Shown piece after piece: positions 3,367 through 25,404 of a stretch of 28,541 nucleotides of DNA. The notes beneath the pieces were generated by a model. The model was not told where the DNA came from and did not search any database. It worked only from the letters and a program-made list of their open reading frames with translations. A program made the position numbers and the translations under genes. This stretch comes from an uncultured Formosa sp. (lineage in GTDB: Bacteria > Bacteroidota > Bacteroidia > Flavobacteriales > Flavobacteriaceae), in assembly GCA_902516685.1 (NCBI GenBank), contig CABXZJ010000011.1, forward strand, positions 1 through 28,541. Reading direction: 5' to 3'. Within the stretch, counting starts at the first letter, position 1, and every line of letters starts with the position of its first letter.

Positions 3367-3391
3367 AAAAAAAGCGGCCAAAAGCCGCTTT
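3367..3391 (-). terminator. Terminator of the 1562-residue secreted protein gene
   Basis: Perfect 8-bp inverted repeat AAAGCGGC (3371-3378)/GCCGCTTT (3384-3391) with a 5-nt loop. Read on the minus strand it runs straight into a T-tract (A-run 3367-3373 on the plus strand). It separates the secreted protein gene from the photolyase gene. Confidence 0.88.
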
Positions 3392-3412: not shown

Positions 3413-6400
3413 TTAGTTCTTAATAATCTGTTTTGTAATAGTTACATTATCATTACTTATTTTTATCAAATAAACACCTTCTTGGATTGCACTCATATCA
3501 ATACTGTTGGTGTTAGAGTTGATTTTTAAGCATTGACCTAACATAGAATAAACTTCAATGTCATAGGCGTCAAAATTACCGCTTATGTATAAAATGTTTT
3601 TCACTGGGTTTGGATATATTTTGATTAAATCAGTCGTTACATCTTCAATATATAGTGACTCACTATTTACAGCATTTGGACTTCCATTTTCATTAATACA
3701 GTCCCAGTTTTGTGCTAATGAATTATTTAAATTTGGTGTAATTAGTTCTAATGTATATCCAGTCTCATCAGCACAAGTTGGCCATTCTGAATTATTGTAT
3801 AAGCAATTAGCATAAATTCCCTCATTGACAAGTGTATCACCATATTCTCCAGAAACTATTAATGACCCTTCACCGTCAAGAATTTCCCATGAAACTTCAC
3901 TAGACCATGAGCCATCTGTCCAAGACATTTCAATGGAATCACCACTACTTGCTTCAAATGTAACACTGGCACTTGAACCAGAGTTAAATGTAGCTCCAAA
4001 AATAACGGTTTGACCAGCAATAATAACATCAACAGCATTGCCCTGCCATCCATCACCATAGGAATCAAACATATTTAAAGTATGAATACATGTTTGTGAG
4101 GTGTCCTCAATTTCATAATCAACTACATCAATAAGTTTATTTTCTGAATCAAATAATCTAACAGCATCATTCCTCCCAAGGCCATAGCCTAATTCTCCTA
4201 TATGCGGAATATTTGGAAAGAAAGTGACAAAATCTGATTGATCTTTAACAATCACTAGAAACCCGTTACCTTGAATTTGTGTTTCTTCTGGAATTGTATA
4301 TGAATGAGAGTCATCTTCATCTCTTATTTCCCAATTTGAAACATCGATAGCAGTTGATTTTGGATTATATAATTCTATCCAATCATCAGGATTAAATTCA
4401 TCGCTTGATCTGTAATTAATTTCATTAATGATAACCAAAGGTTCAATTTCAATTGGTACAGAAACTTCATATTGACATATTTCTGATGAATCTTTTACCA
4501 CTACATTGTAAGTCCCTACAGATAAGTTGTAAAATTCGTTAGAGGTAGAGAAGTTTTGACCTCCATCAATACTGTATGAATATGGAGCCACACCAGATGT
4601 AGGGTTTATAAGGATAGAACCATCAATTGAAATAACAGAAGAAACGCCATAAGCTTCTACATCAACACTTGTAAATGTACAAGTAACAATCGAAATATTT
4701 TCTTCATATGAGCAACCATCAATTATATTTTGAACAAAAATATTATAATCTCCGGTACTTAAATTATCAAAAGTGTTAGAATCTGTAAATGTTTCCCCAC
4801 CATCAATACTATATTGAAATGGACCTGTACCCGAAGTAACATCAATATATATTGATCCATCACTAATTGATGAAGATGATGTGTGGGATATGTTTATTTC
4901 AGTAGAAATATTACATTCGCTCTCTCCAAGACAAAATACCTCTTTCACAAAATTATCGAACTCACCATCATTTGCAACAATTGTATTTCCTGATGAATCT
5001 TGAATTTCAAAACTACCTTGTCCATATCCACAGCAAATACCATCTCCAAAAGAATCATATACGTAAAGAGAAAAACAAGAATTATAATTGACACAAATAT
5101 CTTCGCTGTATAGCTGAGTGTTGTTACTTAAACCGCCTGTGGCTACAATTTCATTAGTTTCTTCATCTATTAGCTTCCATGATGTTTCCTCGGGATAATT
5201 GTCTGCTATGATAACAAGAGTTATGAAGTCATAATCTGAATCTAAATTTGTGCTTGAAGAAGTTGAATTGTTTGAGTTATCCTCATCAGTTTGGTTATTT
5301 ACACTTATTAGATTAAGAATAATATCATTCATTTCATCTAAATTCTGGTCGATAGTTATTGAGACAGTTTCTTGTTGTTGAAAAGGTATTTCAACAGAGA
5401 AATTAATTACTTCCACCACTTGCTCATTAACAATAACTTCAATTCCCAATTCACTTAATGTTGTATATCCTAAGTTTGTTATTACAGCATCGACAAGAAC
5501 TGAGTCATCACAAATAACTTCAATTTCTCCAAATGAAATTGAACCATCAAATTCATTAACATTACTTATCACAGTGCTTAAAATATTATTGTTCTCGTAC
5601 TCATCATTTGGATGATTAACCGATACAGTAACATTATAATCGCCTAAAGCTGAAAAATCTTGAGGTACTGTAAATTCAAAATCAGATTCGCTAAATGGTT
5701 CAACTGTATCATTTATATTTCTAATTTCTACTGATTGGTCATTGATTGTAAGCTCTATATCAAAATCAGTCATATCGTTTAGTCCGAAATTAGTTATTGT
5801 TGCTGTAACAAGTTCATTGGCAGTTAAATTTGAGGAAGACTCAGGAGATACAATAGAACTAACCCCTAGGTCATAATCGGCATTAACATCTGCCCAAAAT
5901 GAAACCCATGGTCTGGCTTGTTTTATTATTAATTGATCTTGAGCCGTAACTTTGTATTCTATATCCATGCCAAATCCATCAGCCCCAACAACATCATATA
6001 GAATTGCAAATTCGTCATGAATTACTGTGAGGAAATCTCTCATTTGATTTAAATAAACTTGATCCATTACAAGTTCTCCAGGTTCAACTAAGTTAGATAA
6101 TCTCAATACTAGATAACCTCCTCCTTGTAAAGGATCTCTGTAAAGTAATATTTCTTCTGGAACAGAGTTAGGATCTGGATTAGTAATTAGTGATTCTCCC
6201 ACCTGTGTGTTAAGATAAAATGTATCTTCTGTTTCATAAATGGGATCGATACTTATACCTACTCCATTTGATTTTTCATTTTGAAAATTATTATGGCATA
6301 AAACTCCCATAGCTGCCATGAAGTGATCAATTCTATAAAAATCTCTTTCTTCATATGCTCTAAAATTCCACATACTGGCATATATTTGTTTTATAGATTT

Positions 6401-8101
6401 GGATATGTGACCTTCATCTGGATATTGTGTTTTTGAGGTATACAAACCTGCTCCGCTAAATCCTGGTAAATCTTCATTATTTGTGCTTGATCTACATCTG
6501 ACAGGTGTTCCTTCTGCAAATTCATCATGCATAGATTGTAAATCGTTCATCATCCATTCAGGCATTTGAGCATCTTTAATATCACTTCTAAAGGCTCTAA
6601 GGCGCTCAATTCGAAAGTTAATATCGGTTTGGAAAATAGGATTATCGATCATTACTTGCGCTTCTTCATAAAAATTATTGAATTGCATAAATTCATCGTA
6701 ATAATAAAATGGTATTCCAAAGCCATCAGGTATAGTTCCATCTACAAAACCAAATGTTCTCATAGTTGCAAGATTTGAACATTTAGCACCAAAAGAGCTT
6801 GACATTTGAAAATTAATATTATTTAAAGGCATAATATCAGTGATACTTAAATCTCTAATTGGAAATTGTGGTTCAGTAGGTCTTAGGTCTTCATACCAAT
6901 CATTAACCTCTTCCAGAGTGGCTTCTCTGATTTCATATTGTTCATTTTCCACTTTGTAATAAATGTAGCCATTAAGAAGACTCGCTATTGAATTATTTGA
7001 CAAAGGATCCGCTATGTAGGCATTAGGAACATTATCTTGAATAGCCCTGAGATTAACGTGAGATAATGGAGTTTGAATGACAGAGGTTATTATACCTCCA
7101 ACTCTAGGTAAGGAGTTTGGTAATGCATCGTAAAGGACAATATCTCTACTCCCTGGAGTTTCATTTAAATTTTGCATATGTTTGAAAAACCCGTATCCTT
7201 CTGCAAGGTGAAAAGGTATATAGTTTACTTCAGCAAAGACATCAGTTTCTAATACCACATCTATTCTTGAACCCTCAAACTCTTCAGCGTAATTATTTAT
7301 ATGGTTATTTTCATCAGCTTGACCAATAAAATGATTCATATTATTTTGAAGAAAAGGCATACTTGCTACTAATAATTCATAAGTCCTTTGTGTGGCTTCA
7401 AAATCATATGCATCTCCAAAAGAAAAATTAAACGAATAGCTACCTATTATTCCATTTGGAAGAATATCATTAGGATTAAAAACGATTTCTCCTGAGCTAT
7501 CATCGCCTGTTACTGAAGCACCAATTCCGCCCCAAAAACTTGCGTGAATAACATAAGTATTGCTGTTGATGAAATAAACTTTAGGCTCATCTGTATCTCT
7601 ATCAAGAATCCCAAACTTCACATACAATTGGTCATCAAGAAAGGGAGCCCAACCAACATTATTTATAGTGGCCAAATCCATAAAAGTATCAGCATCTGGT
7701 ATTGATGTTGAACCATCATTAAAGTCAATAGCCTCTGCAAAATTAAAAGGTGAATCTGTGGGCATATTATTAAATTCAGTAATATCGTCTATACCATCTC
7801 CATCATAATCATCTGGAGCTGAAACATCATGTTCTGTAATAGTGTAGTTTTCTAGAGGATAAGCTCCAACCGGCTCAGATATTATCATTGTCCCATCAAC
7901 TCCTATAGTCATTGAAGTTGCCCAATTAAAGTCAGGATTATGTTGAGCATGTAAAATATAGTACTTGCCAGATTGACCTTGAATTGATAATTGAACTTGT
8001 CCTAAATTATTAATGGAATAATTGTCAATTACTACTGGTTGAGCAAAACATAAGTCAATTAGTATTAATAAAGCAAATGATAAAATAGTCTTTTTGGTCA
8101 T
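3413..8101 (-). CDS. Secreted PEP-synthase/water-dikinase-like protein with T9SS sorting domain
   Basis: A 1562-residue multidomain exported protein. In order: signal peptide (1-20, ...CFA-Q); a calcium-loop-like DYDGDGIDD (98-106); an uncharacterised N-terminal region (about 140-310); a swivelling phosphohistidine-type motif TPLSHVNLRA (344-353, H348); a PPDK_N/PEP-synthase ATP-grasp domain (about 430-735) with GAKCSNL (K440), RCRSST (535-540), NNEDLPGFSGAG (541-552) and the closing DIEY...IIKQARP (713-731). Then come two CARDB-like domains (about 740-950), a DSFGDGICCG domain (953-1057), two SprB-like repeats (1063-1140, 1142-1218), a lamin-tail domain (1222-1332 and 1437-1468) interrupted by a second DSYGDGW domain, and a type A sorting domain (IYPNP, 1495-1562). 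The dikinase motifs look complete, suggesting ATP-dependent phosphoryl transfer, yet the protein is predicted to reach the cell surface or medium. Related secreted proteins exist, but I know of no characterised function. It lies 68 nt after a SixA-like phosphatase gene on the same strand. Confidence 0.88.
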   Translation of the reverse strand: MTKKTILSFALLILIDLCFAQPVVIDNYSINNLGQVQLSIQGQSGKYYILHAQHNPDFNWATSMTIGVDGTMIISEPVGAYPLENYTITEHDVSAPDDYDGDGIDDITEFNNMPTDSPFNFAEAIDFNDGSTSIPDADTFMDLATINNVGWAPFLDDQLYVKFGILDRDTDEPKVYFINSNTYVIHASFWGGIGASVTGDDSSGEIVFNPNDILPNGIIGSYSFNFSFGDAYDFEATQRTYELLVASMPFLQNNMNHFIGQADENNHINNYAEEFEGSRIDVVLETDVFAEVNYIPFHLAEGYGFFKHMQNLNETPGSRDIVLYDALPNSLPRVGGIITSVIQTPLSHVNLRAIQDNVPNAYIADPLSNNSIASLLNGYIYYKVENEQYEIREATLEEVNDWYEDLRPTEPQFPIRDLSITDIMPLNNINFQMSSSFGAKCSNLATMRTFGFVDGTIPDGFGIPFYYYDEFMQFNNFYEEAQVMIDNPIFQTDINFRIERLRAFRSDIKDAQMPEWMMNDLQSMHDEFAEGTPVRCRSSTNNEDLPGFSGAGLYTSKTQYPDEGHISKSIKQIYASMWNFRAYEERDFYRIDHFMAAMGVLCHNNFQNEKSNGVGISIDPIYETEDTFYLNTQVGESLITNPDPNSVPEEILLYRDPLQGGGYLVLRLSNLVEPGELVMDQVYLNQMRDFLTVIHDEFAILYDVVGADGFGMDIEYKVTAQDQLIIKQARPWVSFWADVNADYDLGVSSIVSPESSSNLTANELVTATITNFGLNDMTDFDIELTINDQSVEIRNINDTVEPFSESDFEFTVPQDFSALGDYNVTVSVNHPNDEYENNNILSTVISNVNEFDGSISFGEIEVICDDSVLVDAVITNLGYTTLSELGIEVIVNEQVVEVINFSVEIPFQQQETVSITIDQNLDEMNDIILNLISVNNQTDEDNSNNSTSSSTNLDSDYDFITLVIIADNYPEETSWKLIDEETNEIVATGGLSNNTQLYSEDICVNYNSCFSLYVYDSFGDGICCGYGQGSFEIQDSSGNTIVANDGEFDNFVKEVFCLGESECNISTEINISHTSSSSISDGSIYIDVTSGTGPFQYSIDGGETFTDSNTFDNLSTGDYNIFVQNIIDGCSYEENISIVTCTFTSVDVEAYGVSSVISIDGSILINPTSGVAPYSYSIDGGQNFSTSNEFYNLSVGTYNVVVKDSSEICQYEVSVPIEIEPLVIINEINYRSSDEFNPDDWIELYNPKSTAIDVSNWEIRDEDDSHSYTIPEETQIQGNGFLVIVKDQSDFVTFFPNIPHIGELGYGLGRNDAVRLFDSENKLIDVVDYEIEDTSQTCIHTLNMFDSYGDGWQGNAVDVIIAGQTVIFGATFNSGSSASVTFEASSGDSIEMSWTDGSWSSEVSWEILDGEGSLIVSGEYGDTLVNEGIYANCLYNNSEWPTCADETGYTLELITPNLNNSLAQNWDCINENGSPNAVNSESLYIEDVTTDLIKIYPNPVKNILYISGNFDAYDIEVYSMLGQCLKINSNTNSIDMSAIQEGVYLIKISNDNVTITKQIIKN

Positions 8102-8169: not shown

Positions 8170-8697
8170 TTATTCATTACATAAAAAACCTGAATGTAAT
8201 AATTGAAGACGACTTTTATTTTTGTGTACAATAACTTGATAAATACGATCATAAATATCTAAATCAAATGCTCCTAATTCTTCACCAATTAAAAGTCCAG
8301 CTAAAACTCCGGTAGTATTACTGTGACCAACAACAAGAGCATCTTCTTTTAAACTGATCAATAATTTTGACAAGCCAAAAAGGTCATTAGCATTATAATT
8401 CTTGATAGTTAATTCTTTGGCTTCAGCAGTTGGGAGTGCAGTATTTTTTGTTCTTATATAATTAGTACTATATATTGCATTTAGATTTACATCTCTAAGA
8501 ATGTAGCTTAAATTCTTAGATCTTTTAATTCCACATTTTGATAGAGGAAGATCTGATAATTCATTTGATGAGTAATCTTTTTCAGAATGTCTGACCAAAT
8601 ATATTGTAAATATTTTGTCGGCTTCTTGAGCAACTAAATAATCTTTGGATGAACATGCAAAACTTAAAAGAAATATTATAAATATTTTTTTTTTCAT
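8170..8697 (-). CDS. Lipoprotein histidine phosphatase, SixA/phosphoglycerate-mutase-like
   Basis: A 175-residue member of the histidine phosphatase (branch 1) superfamily. The nucleophile motif VRHSEK (R36, H37), the second arginine (R82 in YIRT) and the second histidine (VVGHSNT, H125) are all present. Such enzymes form a phosphohistidine intermediate; SixA removes phosphate from phosphohistidine proteins, while other members act on small phosphorylated compounds. The N-terminus is a short hydrophobic leader ending LLSFAC (C15), a plausible lipobox, so the protein is probably lipid-anchored and faces the periplasm or outside. Its ATG overlaps the stop codon of the M1 peptidase gene by 4 nt (ATGA at 8697-8694), which implies translational coupling. 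The giant dikinase-like gene follows after 68 nt without a visible terminator. The substrate is unknown. Confidence 0.85.
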
Positions 8698-10955
8698 TTT
8701 TTACTGAATTTAAAAACTTGACCACTAATATTCATCTCAAAACCTGATTTTTCAGAATTAAATTGAATCTGCAAATCAGCTTCTTCAAAAAGGAATTTCC
8801 CATCACCATCATTTGTGAGAAATATTTTGGGTTGTCCTTCCGCCTTAGCAACTAATTCTCCATTTTCATCGCTAATAACAATTGGAATGGGAAACGCAGC
8901 AGAGTTATATTCACCAATATAAGGAGTTAAATTTTCAGTATTTTCTTTTGCAATTTCTGGTGTCCAAAGGTTGTTTGACGAATTAATGTCAGGAAAAACA
9001 TAGTCAGGATCAATAACAACTTTTTTTATTGGCTCATCGGAGTCATATTTGAACGACCATTTATTATTTCTTTTCCATATTTCGACAGGAAGTTTATATC
9101 TACTTAATGTACCATTTTCAGTTGTAAATTCTAAAGTTACTGGCATCGGCATTTGTTCAAGATTTTCAATTTTTACAATAACACCATTTTTAGGATTTCC
9201 ATCAATATACTTAACACTTTTAATAGCTTGATCGATTTTCCAATTATGAATAAACCAGCCTCGCCAAAACCAATTCAATTCTTCACCACTAACATTTTCT
9301 ATAGTTCTGAAAAAATCATTCGGGGTTGGATGCTTGTAAGCCCAACGGTTTATATATTCTGTAAATGCCTCATCAAAAATTTCTTTACCTAAAATATGCT
9401 CTCTTAACATTGTCAATCCCGCACTAGGCTTATAATAGGCTAATATCCCTAAATTACGTTCTTTCATATTATCAGCAGGAGTAGCAACAGGTTCCATTTT
9501 ATCATTTACTAAATAATTTGAAAAACGATGCATATTACGCAGAGGCTCTTTGTATTCACCATTATTAAAAGCATCGGTACTTAAAGAATTTATAAATGTA
9601 TTAAACCCCTCATCCATCCAGGCGTGTAGCCGTTCATTTGAACCAACAATCATAGGAAACCATATGTGTCCAAATTCGTGATCTGTAACACCCCAAAGGC
9701 TTGAATTTTTACTTTTCCAACTGCAAAATACAATTCCTGGATATTCCATCCCTCCTTGATTACCAGCTACATTAATAGCTGCGGGGTAGGGATATTCAGA
9801 CCATTTATTAGAGTAGTGTTCTATGGATGCTTTTGTGTATTCAGTAGATCGGGCCCAGGCATCTCTAGAATTACTTTCAACTGGATAGACCGACATGGCC
9901 ATTGCTTTTTTACCACTGGGCAGGTTGATACGTGCCGCATCAAAAATAAAGGCTGAAGATGAGGACCATGCTACATCTCTTGCATTTTCAATTCTGAACT
10001 TCCATGTTAGGCGCTCATTGGCTTGTGGACGAGAGTCTTTACTGTTAATCTCATTAGCTCCGCGTATAATTACTGTTTCATCGCTGTTGGATGCTTGTTT
10101 TAGCTTATTAAGTTGTTTGGTAGTGTAAACTTCTTCAGGATTTAACAATCCCCCAGAGCAAACCACCAAATGATCTTTGGGGACGTTGATATGGATGTCA
10201 AATGTTCCATATTCTAAATAAAACTCTCCTGCACCAAGATAAGGTAAGGTATTCCATCCTAAAATGTCGTCATAAACACACATCCTTGGATACCACTGTG
10301 CTAAATTGAATATGCGTCCATTTTTAGTTTCCAAAACACCCATTCGGTCCGATCCATAGTCAGGTGAAGTGAAAGAAAAATCAATATTAATTTTTATTTT
10401 ACCCCCATTAGAGGCTAAAGGCTTTGAAAGTTTTATTTTCATGCGGGTGTCTGTAATCTCATATTTGGCATTAAATGTAAGCCCTTTAGTTTTGGTTTTT
10501 TTCTTTGACATTTTCCCAATTGGTACATAAGACAAGCGTACCTGACTAATGTCATAGCCACCATCAAAGTCCTGACCTTTGGCCCCATTTCGACTGCCAT
10601 TCAAAGGAATTATTGCATTACCTCTGGAATCTTTTTTGAATAAGTTTTGGTCTAATTGTATCCAAAGAAAATCTAGTTCATCAGGGCTATTATTCACATA
10701 GGTTATGGTTTCAGTTCCTGTAATTTTTTTGCTTTGTTCGTTGAGGCTTACCTGAATGAAATAGTCCGCACTGTTTTGCCAATAGGCATGGCCAGGCTTT
10801 CCACTTGCTGACCTTGTTTGAGTTCCATTGTTGCTGTAGAATCCGTTTCCAAAAGCGGCATTGTAGTCATAAACGGATTTTTCTGGAGTTTGAGCCCCAC
10901 TAAAAACACTAGCTATTAGTAGCGAGAAAGTCAATTGATAGAGTAATTTAGACAT
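8694..10955 (-). CDS. Exported M1 family metallopeptidase with C-terminal DUF3471-like domain
   Basis: A 753-residue zinc aminopeptidase-type protein. A signal peptide occupies about residues 1-22 (...FSGAQ). The N-terminal beta domain leads to the GGMEY exopeptidase motif (401-405). The gluzincin site HEFGH (426-430) has its third zinc ligand E449 in MDEGF, and a YY pair at 507-508 can supply the transition-state tyrosine. All catalytic residues appear intact. After the helical part, residues about 675-753 (YIGEY...) resemble the small DUF3471-type beta domain often appended to beta-lactamase-like and peptidase proteins. There is no lipobox and no T9SS signal, so the likely location is the periplasm. 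The likely role is trimming of peptides during growth on protein. The stop codon overlaps the start of the histidine phosphatase gene, so the two are co-translated. Confidence 0.92.
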
Positions 10956-18505: not shown

Positions 18506-19789
18506 ATGTTAAATTTATTATTCTTTAATACCCCCCTAATCATACAAGACACTGCTTCAGTTGAAGGCGATATGGGCATGTTGTGGATGCTACTATCAGG
18601 AATATTGGTTTTTTTCATGCAGGCTGGTTTTACACTTGTTGAATCTGGCATGACTCAATCCAAAAATGCAGTTAATATTGCTATGAAAAATATGCTTGAT
18701 ATCTGCGTTGGTACACTTACTTATTGGCTTGTTGGTTATTCTTTAATGTATGGTGCATCTGAAAATGGATGGCTCTTCTGGTCTGGACTTTTTCAAGGAG
18801 ACGGTGCTGATTTGTTTTTTCAAACAATGTTTGCTGCCACTGCTGCGACAATCGTATCCGGTGCAATAGCGGGCCGTACTAAATTTTCTACATATGCAAT
18901 TTTTACTGTTGTAATGACCTCTATAATATATCCCATAGCTGGTGGTTGGGAATGGAATGGCGGTTGGTTAAATAATACTGAAGAATACTTTTTTAAAGAA
19001 GAATTTATCGATTTTGCTGGATCCTCAATCGTACATGGTGTGGGAGGTTTTGCTGCACTAGTTGCTGCTTATATGGTAGGCCCTCGCTTAGGAAAATACG
19101 TTGATGGAAAAGTAATTCCTATTCCAGGACACAATCTAACATTAGCAACTCTTGGTGTATTTATTCTCTGGCTGGGTTGGTTTGGATTTAATGGAGGTTC
19201 CCAACTTGCTTGGGGAGGAGATGATGCTATTGGAGCATCAGCTGTTGTTGTAAGTACTAACATAGCCGCCGCTGCGGGAGCTCTTGGTGCATTATTTACT
19301 ACATGGATATATCTCGGTAAACCTAATTTGTCACACACACTTAATGGTGCATTAGCTGGATTAGTTAGCATCACCGCAGGTTGTGGGAATATGACTGAGT
19401 TTGGAGCTATGATGGCTGGTTTGGTTGGTGGAATTATAGTTGTGTTTTCAATTGAGTTTGTAGAGAAAAAACTTAAAATTGACGATGCTATAGGGGCATT
19501 TTCCGTACATGGCGTTGCTGGTTTTTGGGGAACAATTGTTATAGGTCTTTGGGGCGTTGACTCAGATGGAGCTATAGGCATTTTTAATGGTGCTGGTCCA
19601 GACCAATTTGTGGTTCAATTAACAGGTGCTCTTTCGTATGCAATTTGGGCAATAGGTTTATCATTCTTGGTTTTCTTTTTACTAGATAAATCAATTGGTT
19701 TAAGAGTTACAGAGGAACAAGAGTTAGAAGGATTAAGTATGTCGGAACACGGAGATGTAGCTTATGCTGGAAAAAGAAAAAGAGAATAG
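18506..19789 (+). CDS. amt: Ammonium transporter Amt
   Basis: A 427-residue integral membrane protein of the Amt/MEP/Rh family that imports ammonium for assimilation. About eleven membrane segments can be drawn. The twin pore histidines lie in SSIVHGVGG (H177) and FSVHGVAGFWG (H335), with the conserved acid D169 before the first. Family motifs GFTLVESGM (41-49) and GWFGFNGGSQ (224-233) are present. The C-terminal tail keeps the regulatory form ...LSMSEHGDVAY. No glnK/P-II gene adjoins it, unlike the common glnK-amt arrangement. The ATG at 18506 begins a short leader that may be cleaved or may form the periplasmic N-terminus. It is followed by a terminator and so is monocistronic. Confidence 0.95.
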   Translation: MLNLLFFNTPLIIQDTASVEGDMGMLWMLLSGILVFFMQAGFTLVESGMTQSKNAVNIAMKNMLDICVGTLTYWLVGYSLMYGASENGWLFWSGLFQGDGADLFFQTMFAATAATIVSGAIAGRTKFSTYAIFTVVMTSIIYPIAGGWEWNGGWLNNTEEYFFKEEFIDFAGSSIVHGVGGFAALVAAYMVGPRLGKYVDGKVIPIPGHNLTLATLGVFILWLGWFGFNGGSQLAWGGDDAIGASAVVVSTNIAAAAGALGALFTTWIYLGKPNLSHTLNGALAGLVSITAGCGNMTEFGAMMAGLVGGIIVVFSIEFVEKKLKIDDAIGAFSVHGVAGFWGTIVIGLWGVDSDGAIGIFNGAGPDQFVVQLTGALSYAIWAIGLSFLVFFLLDKSIGLRVTEEQELEGLSMSEHGDVAYAGKRKRE

Positions 19790-21999: not shown

Positions 22000-24900
22000 T
22001 CAATTTAGAATTATTTTTTTTGTTATTCGCTTACTGTTTGATTCTATTTCTAAAATATAAATCCCCTTTGAAAATTTAGACATATCTATCTCATAATTAG
22101 AAATGCCATAATTGACATAGTCTTTGTAAAGTAGTTTAGCAGTTACATCACGAATATATATTTTAAAGTCAGGGATATTATTCATACGAATATTAAATAT
22201 ATCTGAGGATGGGTTTGGATAAATTGAAATTTGCTGTAGTTCATAATCAATTGAATTTAATGTGGTTCCTTCTACAACTAAATCGTCAATTATTACGCCT
22301 TCAGCTGTGACGTAATTATCTGTATGAAATACAAATCTAAAAATTATATTATTAGCTTCAGCAAACTCTGCTAAATCATAAGCGTATTCAATCATTTCAA
22401 GGCTATTACCCGTCCATTGTGCTCCAACGCAATTATAACAGTTGTTATTAATACCATCACCAGAAAATCTTGAGCTGTTGTACCAGTTGATATCTTCGGA
22501 ATCGCCTAAGATGTTCCAATTTTCACCCAAATCTGTTGAATATTCCATGAACAATAAATCCCAATCAAATTCAATTTCAAAGGCCATATTAAATTTTAAA
22601 ATGGGGTTTCCAATTGTGGTTAAATCAAAGCAAGGAGAATATAGATAAGATTTAGTATTATTGGAATACTCTCCATCCAAATTTGTTCCATAAACTTGTG
22701 TTCCAGATGTTGTAGTGTTTAGCTCTTCTCCCGTAGGTTGTCCACGTTCCCACAAGTCACCAGAGTCTGAGGCTACTAATAAGTTGTCAGAAATAGTTTC
22801 AAAAGTATTTATTGTTTGAGTTGCACCAGCTCGATTTACATTAAAAGTTAAATTTGAATTATTATTTGAATTATAAAAATCATTTTCAATTGAGACTGAT
22901 ACATAAAATTGATGTTCTCCAAAATTAATACTCATCGGTTGAAGCTGAATTATCTCTTCATCAAGAGAGGCAATAGAGCCATTCCAAATTTGTGTTGTAG
23001 GATTTTCATTATCAATGAAATAAGAAATTTCTATTTCTGAAATTAAATTTTCCCCGTTATTTTTAACACGAATTTGTGGAGCCAGATCTCCGCAAGAAAT
23101 ATTTATTGTAGATGGGTTTTCAATTGCTACTAATTTAATATCGTCTGACGCTAGAGATGTTAATGGCATTGTACTTCTCCATATACCACGACCATAGGTA
23201 GAAGCAATAATTTGATTATCTGGAATATTAATACTTAAGTCTCTTACTGAAGTATTTGGCAGGTTTACCTCGAATGGTAACCAATCATTTGTATTATCGT
23301 CGTACCTGTAAACCCCTAAACTTGTTCCTAGATATAAAACGTTTTCTGGAGTATCAACTTGGTGCTTAATCATATTCTTTACAACTGAAGGTAGGCTTCC
23401 CGAAACATCTGTAAATGAGACTGCTTGATTAATAGATTTGTAAACTTTACCTGAGCTACCTCTAGTTGTCACATATATTAAGTTATTGTCGTTGTTATGA
23501 ACTTCAATAGAAGTTATATTATTGGGAAAACTACCAAGATTTACAAAATTAACTCCACGATCTAAACTTTTGTGTAGATTTGAATTTGTAGCTACATATA
23601 TTATGTCGCTATTGATTGGGTCAAGTTCTAAAACATCAATATTGGTACCAAAATTTGAAGAAATTGCAGTAAAATCACCATTTTCAAATTGATATAGTCT
23701 ATCATATCCCGCAAAGACTTCGCTCTGACTATTAATGCTTAGAGGAGTTATCCAATTTCCATTAGTGGGTCCACTGTATCCTTGAGTACCACTATACCCT
23801 GACATTCCAGAATCATTATTTACAAATAATGTTTGTCCTCCTTGCATAAAGCCATAATATATATTGTCATTATTAGGATCAATTACACTTTCCATACCAT
23901 CACCTCCATGGTAACTGCTCCATTCATTGAAATATGCAAATCCACCATTGTCTTGAGTTCCTCCGGCAATTTTATTGGAATTTTGTTTAGAAACAGATAC
24001 TCTGTAAAATTGACTAATGGCCATATTTCCAGTAAAGTCGGTAAAAGTATTTCCTTGGTTTGAAGATTTGAAAAAACCACCATCAGATCCAACAAATAAT
24101 TCATTATTGTAAAATTTAAGGAAGTGAATGTCAGCATGAGTATAAGCTTCATTTCGATTTGCCCAATCGCTAAGTTGTGTAAAGCTATCGCCACCATCTC
24201 CAGACTTCCATACATTTAATACCCCGACATATAATTCATTTTCATCAGTATCTGAAACAGCCATAGCTAAATCATACCATGCTTGATTACTTTGATAAAT
24301 ATCTTCAGTGTTGTCCATTTTGATAAAACCTCCTCCGCTGTTAGAAGATTTGTAAACTCCTTCAAATCCAAAATTACTCGTACTAGCAACAATATAAACT
24401 AGTTCGTTATTTGCAGGTGTAACGTCCATTACTAGTCTTGCTGATCCGGAAGGCAAACCAAAACCACTGTTATTAAAACTTTCTCCGCCATCTGTAGATT
24501 TGAAAAATTCTGAGTCAGTAATAGCATATACTATTGACGGATCTCCAGGCTTTTGTTTAACCCCTTGAAATGCCCCAGTTTGAGATTGATTCCAATTAAT
24601 ACCACTATCTAAGGTTTTATAAACTCCATTATTTGTTGCAGCCCAAATAATTCCAGGGTTAGATTCATGCATCTCTAGTTCATATATTCTTGTAGGAGAA
24701 TTATTAGGATTCATCCCTGTTTGTTCCCAATTTATTCCTGCATTAGTTGATTTCCATATACCAACGCTGTAAGAATCACCTGCATCATCATCCCCAGTTG
24801 CTATGTATATTATGTTTGAATTTGTATAATCAATTACTATACTAGAAACACCAATTTGTGGTAAATCGTCAGAAAGAGCTACGTAAGTTAGACCACCATC

Positions 24901-25404
24901 CTCAGATTTCCATATTCCACCAGATGGAGTTCCAACATATACAATGTTAGGATTTACAGGATCAGGTGTTACACAGTTAACACGACCTAAATTTAAATAT
25001 GATGTAGATCGATTCAAAAAATCTGTAGGCCCAATTGAACTCCAATTACTCTGGTCATTAGAAGAATTTATGGATGTTCTAAGTTGACTAGCACTATTTT
25101 TACTTTTCCAAGTATCCCAAAGTTCTTTGCCTGATGGTAAAAATCCCATTTCATCAACATAGTTTTCCCAAAAAGCTTCCCAACGTTTAAAAGGTTTGTA
25201 ACCGCTCCCTTTAGCATTTTTATCATTTATTTCCCAATATAAATTTCCAGCATCAACAACGTCTTGAAAATTAATTTTTTCATTAACTGAAACTCCAGCA
25301 CTTTTTACCCACGGGGAATTATAATTGATTTGAGCTGATATTAAATTTATTGATATAGATAAAATAAAGATTAAAACTGTATGTGATATTAAAATACGTT
25401 TCAT
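22000..25404 (-). CDS. T9SS-exported BNR/VPS10-type beta-propeller protein
   Basis: An 1134-residue surface or secreted protein. A signal peptide (1-24, ...LISAQ) is followed by a short helical segment with PFKRWEAFWE (71-80) and a WDTW (96-99). Then come about twelve sortilin/BNR-like propeller blades (about 120-750), recognised by repeats of the form (V/I)Y.(G/A)T...G(I/V)(W/Y)KS.DGG..(F/W), for example 155-173, 199-225 and 438-453. An Ig/CARDB-like region (about 755-860) precedes a MAM/jelly-roll-like domain (about 865-1048), which ends DDLVVEG. A type A sorting domain (IYPNPSSDIF, 1061-1070, to the end) follows. Such propellers bind or process glycans or proteins, but no catalytic signature is evident. 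A short glycine-serine run with two GYSG units (536-545) interrupts one blade loop. It follows a small lipoprotein gene after 8 nt, so the two form an operon. Confidence 0.85.
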   Translation of the reverse strand: MKRILISHTVLIFILSISINLISAQINYNSPWVKSAGVSVNEKINFQDVVDAGNLYWEINDKNAKGSGYKPFKRWEAFWENYVDEMGFLPSGKELWDTWKSKNSASQLRTSINSSNDQSNWSSIGPTDFLNRSTSYLNLGRVNCVTPDPVNPNIVYVGTPSGGIWKSEDGGLTYVALSDDLPQIGVSSIVIDYTNSNIIYIATGDDDAGDSYSVGIWKSTNAGINWEQTGMNPNNSPTRIYELEMHESNPGIIWAATNNGVYKTLDSGINWNQSQTGAFQGVKQKPGDPSIVYAITDSEFFKSTDGGESFNNSGFGLPSGSARLVMDVTPANNELVYIVASTSNFGFEGVYKSSNSGGGFIKMDNTEDIYQSNQAWYDLAMAVSDTDENELYVGVLNVWKSGDGGDSFTQLSDWANRNEAYTHADIHFLKFYNNELFVGSDGGFFKSSNQGNTFTDFTGNMAISQFYRVSVSKQNSNKIAGGTQDNGGFAYFNEWSSYHGGDGMESVIDPNNDNIYYGFMQGGQTLFVNNDSGMSGYSGTQGYSGPTNGNWITPLSINSQSEVFAGYDRLYQFENGDFTAISSNFGTNIDVLELDPINSDIIYVATNSNLHKSLDRGVNFVNLGSFPNNITSIEVHNNDNNLIYVTTRGSSGKVYKSINQAVSFTDVSGSLPSVVKNMIKHQVDTPENVLYLGTSLGVYRYDDNTNDWLPFEVNLPNTSVRDLSINIPDNQIIASTYGRGIWRSTMPLTSLASDDIKLVAIENPSTINISCGDLAPQIRVKNNGENLISEIEISYFIDNENPTTQIWNGSIASLDEEIIQLQPMSINFGEHQFYVSVSIENDFYNSNNNSNLTFNVNRAGATQTINTFETISDNLLVASDSGDLWERGQPTGEELNTTTSGTQVYGTNLDGEYSNNTKSYLYSPCFDLTTIGNPILKFNMAFEIEFDWDLLFMEYSTDLGENWNILGDSEDINWYNSSRFSGDGINNNCYNCVGAQWTGNSLEMIEYAYDLAEFAEANNIIFRFVFHTDNYVTAEGVIIDDLVVEGTTLNSIDYELQQISIYPNPSSDIFNIRMNNIPDFKIYIRDVTAKLLYKDYVNYGISNYEIDMSKFSKGIYILEIESNSKRITKKIILN

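Follow-up and report, generated by a model that had tools for sequence, protein, structure and literature searches.

A predicted exported dikinase and its recurring exported phosphatase neighbor in an uncultured Formosa sp.

The dikinases phosphoenolpyruvate (PEP) synthase, PPDK, rifampin phosphotransferase (RPH) and glucan, water dikinase (GWD) are known as ATP-dependent enzymes of the cytosol or the plastid. A phosphohistidine domain placed directly before the ATP-grasp domain is the order found in GWD. In RPH the ATP-grasp domain comes first, followed by the rifampin-binding domain and then by the His domain at the C-terminus (PMC4844700). Here we describe a gene from a stretch of 28,541 nucleotides of an uncultured Formosa sp. 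(Flavobacteriaceae; assembly GCA_902516685.1, contig CABXZJ010000011.1; the whole stretch is hereafter the window). Its minus-strand open reading frame (ORF) of 1562 codons at 3413..8101, opened by an ATG, encodes a dikinase core on a protein with signals for export. We consider it reasonably probable that this window dikinase is catalytically competent and exported, and that it pairs with an exported phosphatase, encoded beside it, on an acceptor at the cell surface or in the environment. The domain content and order, the intact catalytic residues, the signals for export and for the type IX secretion system (T9SS) and the recurring gene pair were read directly by computation.

The PPDK_N family of Pfam matched residues 436-633 of the window dikinase (E 2.2e-21, 77 bits against a cut-off of 27), and the LTD, Por_Secre_tail, SprB and CARDB families also exceeded their Pfam cut-offs. 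The type A sorting domain TIGR04183 scored 51.7 bits against a cut-off of 23 and, together with the N-terminal signal peptide, marks the protein as a predicted T9SS type A cargo. A first-pass annotation of this DNA had described the ORF as a secreted T9SS cargo that carries a complete-looking ATP-grasp domain of the PEP synthase type, and the ORF and the features that it noted are confirmed as real. The gene lies on the minus strand, the signal peptide (MTKKTILSFALLILIDLCFAQ) is evident both by eye and by a simple rule, and the quoted residues are correct in identity and numbering (K440 in GAKCSN, R537 in RCRSST, NNEDLPGFSGAG and the closing DIEY...KQARP). Because the best 120 of 2190 matches in a database search with residues 125-745 were 85-100% identical over 99-100% of the query, this dikinase feature is not a product of chance; other PPDK_N proteins may figure among the matches beyond the best 120.

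Profile alignment to solved chains, as we read it, places K440, R537, S556 and E715 on Lys22, Arg117, Thr136 and Glu297 of RPH-Lm. In that enzyme the Lys22Ala variant was inactive, Arg117 and Thr136 variants lost resistance, and the Glu297Ala variant was still active (PMC4844700). Ser347, His348, K440, N443, R537, S538, E543, D544, A551, G552, S556, D713, E715, Q728 and R730 were each invariant in 239 of 239 aligned proteins (P0001-P0239, that is P0001 and 238 other listed matches, with P0002 identical in the aligned stretch), a set chosen by similarity and dominated by near relatives. The ATP-contact residues were thus neither out of register nor freely replaced, so that the annotation's claim is not refuted on this point. 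Five proteins of about 830 residues that were measured shared 53-59% identity with the window dikinase core. A more distant family of about 970 residues, sampled with its own query (the best 120 of 1894 matches), kept 12 of the 13 examined residues in 120 of 120 proteins, and position 556 was Thr, the residue that RPH-Lm has there. Among 40 relatives of 1300-1700 residues, drawn at random from 118, the median identity was 90% for the His domain, 86% for the ATP-grasp domain and 87% for the middle domain, and 22-62% for the later modules. To judge from these sequences, the dikinase part is what selection holds in these proteins.

The first-pass annotation was supported as to the ATP-grasp domain on an exported cargo protein and was otherwise incomplete: it left a binding role open despite a phosphohistidine domain that it had overlooked, along with the recurring phosphatase neighbor. 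This swivelling domain (residues ∼291-394), on which phosphotransfer depends, directly precedes the ATP-grasp domain and was recognized by its fold and by the conserved pair Ser347-His348. The fold alignment drew on the best 80 of 544 confirmed relatives of the window protein, taken from contigs of one genome per species: 54 of these 80 loci were entered, L087 was dropped for a stop codon, 38 were left after a redundancy filter, and the final rows comprised 29 of those 38, the window and 11 others. GWD1_pHisD (PF22973) was the second most common Pfam family in the relatives (11 of 41; weak, best E 0.012) and tied for first when His domains were searched in isolation (10 of 16; weak, best E 0.0013); in three relatives it scored 11.6, 15.7 and 12.6 bits, under the cut-off of 27, and it had no match in the window dikinase. 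Because sequence-family support is weak, the identity of the His domain rests on its fold, its position and the conserved Ser-His.

By a simple rule rather than a trained predictor, 222 of 232 window-type and ∼830-residue proteins begin with a signal-peptide-like stretch (217 of 232 with an earlier, cruder rule), counting those of P0001-P0239 that start with M and have at least 780 residues, which left out 7 of 239. The same rule gave 110 of 119 for the ∼970-residue type and 1 of 12 for cytosolic PEP synthase controls of the same phylum. The order His domain then ATP-grasp is common to four exported families: (a) the window type, of about 1150-1580 residues and mostly with a T9SS domain; (b) proteins of about 830 residues with a T9SS domain; (c) proteins of about 625-645 residues, with no T9SS domain in the five scanned; and (d) proteins of about 970 residues, for which PF01326 is the sole family listed. 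Relatives occur in many metagenome-derived genomes, some of Tara Oceans source, under record names such as 'PEP/pyruvate-binding domain-containing protein', 'lamin tail domain-containing protein' and 'phosphoenolpyruvate synthase', the last being the public label on some exported members of family (d).

The neighboring gene upstream encodes a branch 1 member of the histidine phosphatase superfamily. This protein starts with a signal sequence, seen by eye, and matches PF00300 at 39.5 bits (E 6.1e-10; cut-off 21.7). R36, H37, R82 and H125 were conserved in 54 of 54 sequences and are presumably the catalytic residues of the branch 1 superfamily (the RH pair, the second Arg and the second His). 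C55 and C173 were likewise conserved in 54 of 54 and could form a disulphide. For the 80 loci, a phosphatase homologue was called by tblastn at E<=1e-30, and its absence where at least 900 bases of upstream sequence were present. The 61 nearer loci (L038-L098; 73-88% identity) carry mostly the labels Flavobacteriales, Flavobacteriaceae, Crocinitomicaceae and Bacteroidetes, with four Saprospiraceae/Chitinophagales and one Euryarchaeota; the 19 more distant loci (L099-L117; 66-72% identity) are labelled Saprospiraceae (18) and Chitinophagales (1). A homologue lay near the dikinase in 53 of the 61 nearer loci, with five lacking it and three contigs too short. Across all 80, 49 had it immediately upstream in the same orientation (median gap 114 bases) and four had it on the downstream side (tail to tail in three, with gaps of ∼40-90 bases, and at a distance of 1.3 kb in the other); it was absent in 21, and six contigs were too short for a call. 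The contig labelled Euryarchaeota (L088), which carries both genes, is probably a mis-binned Bacteroidota contig.

Two of the five nearer genomes without an adjoining phosphatase (G427 and G428) have a strong homologue elsewhere in the genome, and among 31 relatives a strong homologue (E<1e-50) was present in 11 of 11 with a window-type dikinase versus 0 of 20 without one; seven of those 20 have remote homologues only (E 4e-22 to 1e-12). The phosphatase is the sole widely recurring neighbor, the next-best ORF cluster being found in 9 of 80 loci. Since no other neighbor family recurs in more than nine loci, plain synteny does not account for the pair, and the downstream placements, like the variety of the flanking genes, speak for a functional link between dikinase and phosphatase.

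Several observations weigh against the proposal that the dikinase is active and works with the phosphatase. None of the 19 more distant loci had the phosphatase (16 lacked it and three were too short), and the best recurring neighbor there, among the 25 largest ORF clusters, was found in four. The phosphatase is thus not indispensable, being missing from 16 distant loci with enough flank and from five nearer ones, and of the 11 relatives with a window-type dikinase, all of which have a strong homologue, 10 come from a single genus, so that these samples are not independent. The window's own His domain matched no Pfam family even at E 10, a PDB profile search with it placed PEP synthase (E 0.11) behind a ribosomal protein (E 0.049), and the arrangement of the domains in the structure model is uncertain (pTM 0.63). 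In general, no ATP would be expected beyond the inner membrane. None of the 31 window relatives had a match to the TLC-type ATP/ADP transporters in a search whose controls gave no match either (the family did match in 25 of 395 genomes of the phylum), and a TLC nucleotide transporter as a partner of the window family is therefore without support.

Dikinase activity, the donor, the acceptor and the direction of the reaction are what we infer, and a mechanism can be outlined on that footing. ATP, or another nucleotide or phosphodonor, would bind the ATP-grasp domain, and His348 on the swivel domain would take the beta-phosphate. The swivel domain would then swing to an acceptor held by the preceding middle domain or by a partner, and the acceptor would be phosphorylated. 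The obvious candidate for the acceptor-binding part is the middle domain (residues ∼124-290), which families (a), (b) and (c) have in common; a fold search gave no useful match for it, the search list having been filled by the FnIII part. The adjoining exported phosphatase would dephosphorylate that acceptor, or else the phosphohistidine itself, and the two proteins would thereby run a cycle of phosphorylation and dephosphorylation, either periplasmic or on the cell surface. The GWD-like domain order and the weak matches to the GWD phosphohistidine domain suggest a surface or environmental glycan as the likeliest candidate acceptor.

One refinement of the proposed dikinase-phosphatase pair, which we regard as possible but tentative, is that the donor is ATP exported by the cell or leaked from lysed neighbors and that the enzyme does its work in the periplasm, ahead of T9SS export or in the course of it. 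The evidence comes from family (d), inspected by eye at seven loci (L124-L130, for example L125:1300-5470). In six of the seven, the next gene downstream of the dikinase encodes an exported protein of ∼420 residues (both of those tested matched Beta-lactamase2 in Pfam), and in five a membrane protein of ∼945-960 residues lies beside these two; of three such membrane proteins tested, two matched TLC above its cut-off and one did not. Of the 395 phylum genomes sampled, we count 12 as carrying a family (d) dikinase, and a TLC match was present in 9 of these 12 versus 16 of the other 383, within about 4 kb of the dikinase in 6 of the 12. Against this, the TLC evidence belongs to a different subfamily, the matches are partial and transport is putative, and G019, the window relative with a family-(d)-like dikinase, has no TLC match, as is the case for all 31. 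Another reading dispenses with ATP, the His being charged from another phosphorylated compound or from polyphosphate, or the reaction running in reverse with AMP and pyrophosphate, for example in phosphate salvage at the surface. It is conceivable because HpeH alone, part of a two-component dikinase, passed phosphate from one acceptor to another (PMC12167813). In family (c) a gene for a DUF4956 membrane protein stands tail to tail with the ∼625-residue dikinase in 7 of 7 genomes (loci L119-L123, L010, L011, L015 and L016), one of which belongs to another bacterial family and has a DUF4956 protein only 39% identical; DUF4956 also adjoins the gene for VTC, which we take to be a polyphosphate polymerase family, in 5 of 5 relatives having VTC. 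Polyphosphate as the donor in family (c) is thus a conceivable lead. VTC was found in 5 of the 31 relatives and in 1 of the 11 with a window-type dikinase, and DUF4956 in 10 of those 11 versus 6 of the 20 others, not beside the dikinase; strict retention of the ATP-grasp residues would moreover be unexpected, and we judge a route without ATP improbable. Both the TLC and the DUF4956/VTC leads concern sister families and not the window family.

A domain exported purely to bind or sense, as a nucleotide- or glycan-binding module, would sit well with the adhesin-type modules on the same protein and with an exterior for which we know of no ATP pool. Yet both half-sites (His348; K440, R537, E715, Q728 and R730) are kept in 239 of 239 window-set proteins and in 120 of 120 of family (d), and the swivel His would be needless in a binding module, so that we give this explanation about as little weight as the ATP-free route. 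Least probable of all is the inactivation of an antibiotic-type or other small molecule outside the cell, as rifampin phosphotransferase performs inside: the closest fold to the ATP-grasp domain is that of RPH-Lm, tied with PEP synthase, but the window dikinase has its His domain ahead of the ATP-grasp domain, with no rifampin-binding domain in between.

We advance, as a speculative extension with less than even chances, that Bacteroidota have an unrecognized extracytoplasmic phosphorylation system in which exported two-step dikinases of GWD order, in at least four sequence families, phosphorylate glycans of the surface or the environment. In the window family a dedicated exported phosphatase would oppose them, in the ∼970-residue family a nucleotide exchanger would supply them, and in the ∼625-residue family they would be coupled to a membrane protein of the DUF4956/polyphosphate type. 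Exported dikinases that keep all tested catalytic residues, with a recurring phosphatase, would imply phosphotransfer chemistry outside the inner membrane, which the annotations 'PEP/pyruvate-binding domain' and 'phosphoenolpyruvate synthase' hide, and the source of the donor and the phosphorylated target become testable questions.

The features of the locus are collected in Table 1. The M1-family peptidase gene is rarely kept with the pair (3 of 80 loci); its overlap with the phosphatase gene means that peptidase, phosphatase and dikinase are possibly co-transcribed here. The hairpin past the dikinase stop is argued for solely by its position, since terminator-like sites in the region numbered 4 versus 3.9 in shuffled sequence; promoter-like sites were about as frequent as in shuffles (47 versus 45.2), and no use was made of them. 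For the ∼830-residue family no partner gene was found at the one locus read. Near the ∼830-residue dikinase of G075, a T9SS cargo protein (L118:4269-5447) has a sub-threshold match to N-formylglutamate amidohydrolase, at that single locus. Elsewhere in the window, positions 22000-25404 (minus strand) encode a second T9SS cargo protein of 1134 residues; it has a MAM-like domain towards the C-terminus, and repeats resembling BNR can be seen by eye. A 170-residue antisense ORF at 19069-19581 (minus strand), inside a gene at 18506-19789 that looks by eye like an ammonium transporter, is probably spurious.

Table 1. Positions of the dikinase gene, its predicted domains and adjoining features in the window.
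Feature	Position	Strand	Basis or remark
Exported dikinase, whole gene, 1562 residues	3413..8101	minus	ORF reading and Pfam
Signal peptide region, residues 1-23	8033..8101	minus	sequence; median identity to relatives 41%
FnIII/Ig-like beta-sandwich, about residues 24-99	7805..8032	minus	
Middle domain, about residues 124-290	7232..7732	minus	common to the ∼830- and ∼625-residue families
Swivelling phosphohistidine domain, about residues 291-394	6920..7231	minus	His348 at 7058-7060
ATP-grasp domain, about residues 395-738	5888..6919	minus	K440, R537, S556, D713, E715, Q728, R730
CARDB domain, about residues 739-845	5567..5887	minus	PF07705, E 5.6e-5, 23.7 bits versus cut-off 22.7; match 744-841
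SprB repeat region, about residues 1081-1215 (limits approximate)	4457..4861	minus	PF13573, two stretches
Lamin tail domain (LTD), about residues 1216-1330	4112..4456	minus	PF00932, E 2.1e-15; match 1223-1329
T9SS type A C-terminal sorting domain, about residues 1487-1562	3416..3643	minus	PF18962 (match 1495-1560) and TIGR04183 above cut-off
Hairpin resembling an intrinsic terminator, 9 pairs, T-rich tail	3371..3391	minus	21 bases past the dikinase stop
Exported histidine phosphatase superfamily (branch 1) protein, 175 residues	8170..8697	minus	PF00300; 68 bases upstream of the dikinase
M1-family peptidase gene	8694..10955	minus	PF01433; 4-base overlap of its end with the start of the phosphatase gene (8694-8697)

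In the open-access literature (most subscription journals and bioRxiv lie outside this scope) we found no paper on an exported dikinase and nothing relevant on secreted, periplasmic, extracellular or bacterial glucan dikinases; the parts of the window dikinase are known, and their combination was not found there. Like PEP synthase and PPDK, the window dikinase has both an ATP-grasp (PPDK_N) domain and a swivel domain with its His, but in a different order. No Pfam match to the PEP/pyruvate-binding barrel was found at E<=1 in the whole 1562 residues, the C-terminal part being occupied by the CARDB, SprB, LTD and sorting domains. The protein also fell far under the NCBIfam equivalog cut-offs for PEP synthase (59.1 of 598 and 57.4 of 739.75 bits), and we reject membership in the PEP synthase/PPDK group on both grounds. 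The likeness to RPH-Lm lies in the modelled ATP-grasp fold; unlike RPH, the window protein is exported and has its His domain at residues 291-394 rather than at the C-terminus, and membership among the rifampin phosphotransferases is rejected on domain order. With GWD and phosphoglucan, water dikinase it shares a His domain that precedes the ATP-grasp domain, whereas it is an exported bacterial protein with a T9SS domain. A strict GWD assignment is rejected, as no starch-binding module (CBM45 or CBM20) matched at E<=1 in the window dikinase and PF22973 is weak or absent. In its export and its LTD and sorting domains the window dikinase resembles the CotH-type kinases of secreted Bacteroidota proteins, which we take to be an exported kinase fold that often comes with such domains. 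The difference is one of fold: CotH-type kinases have a protein-kinase-like fold, and the window dikinase has an ATP-grasp domain.
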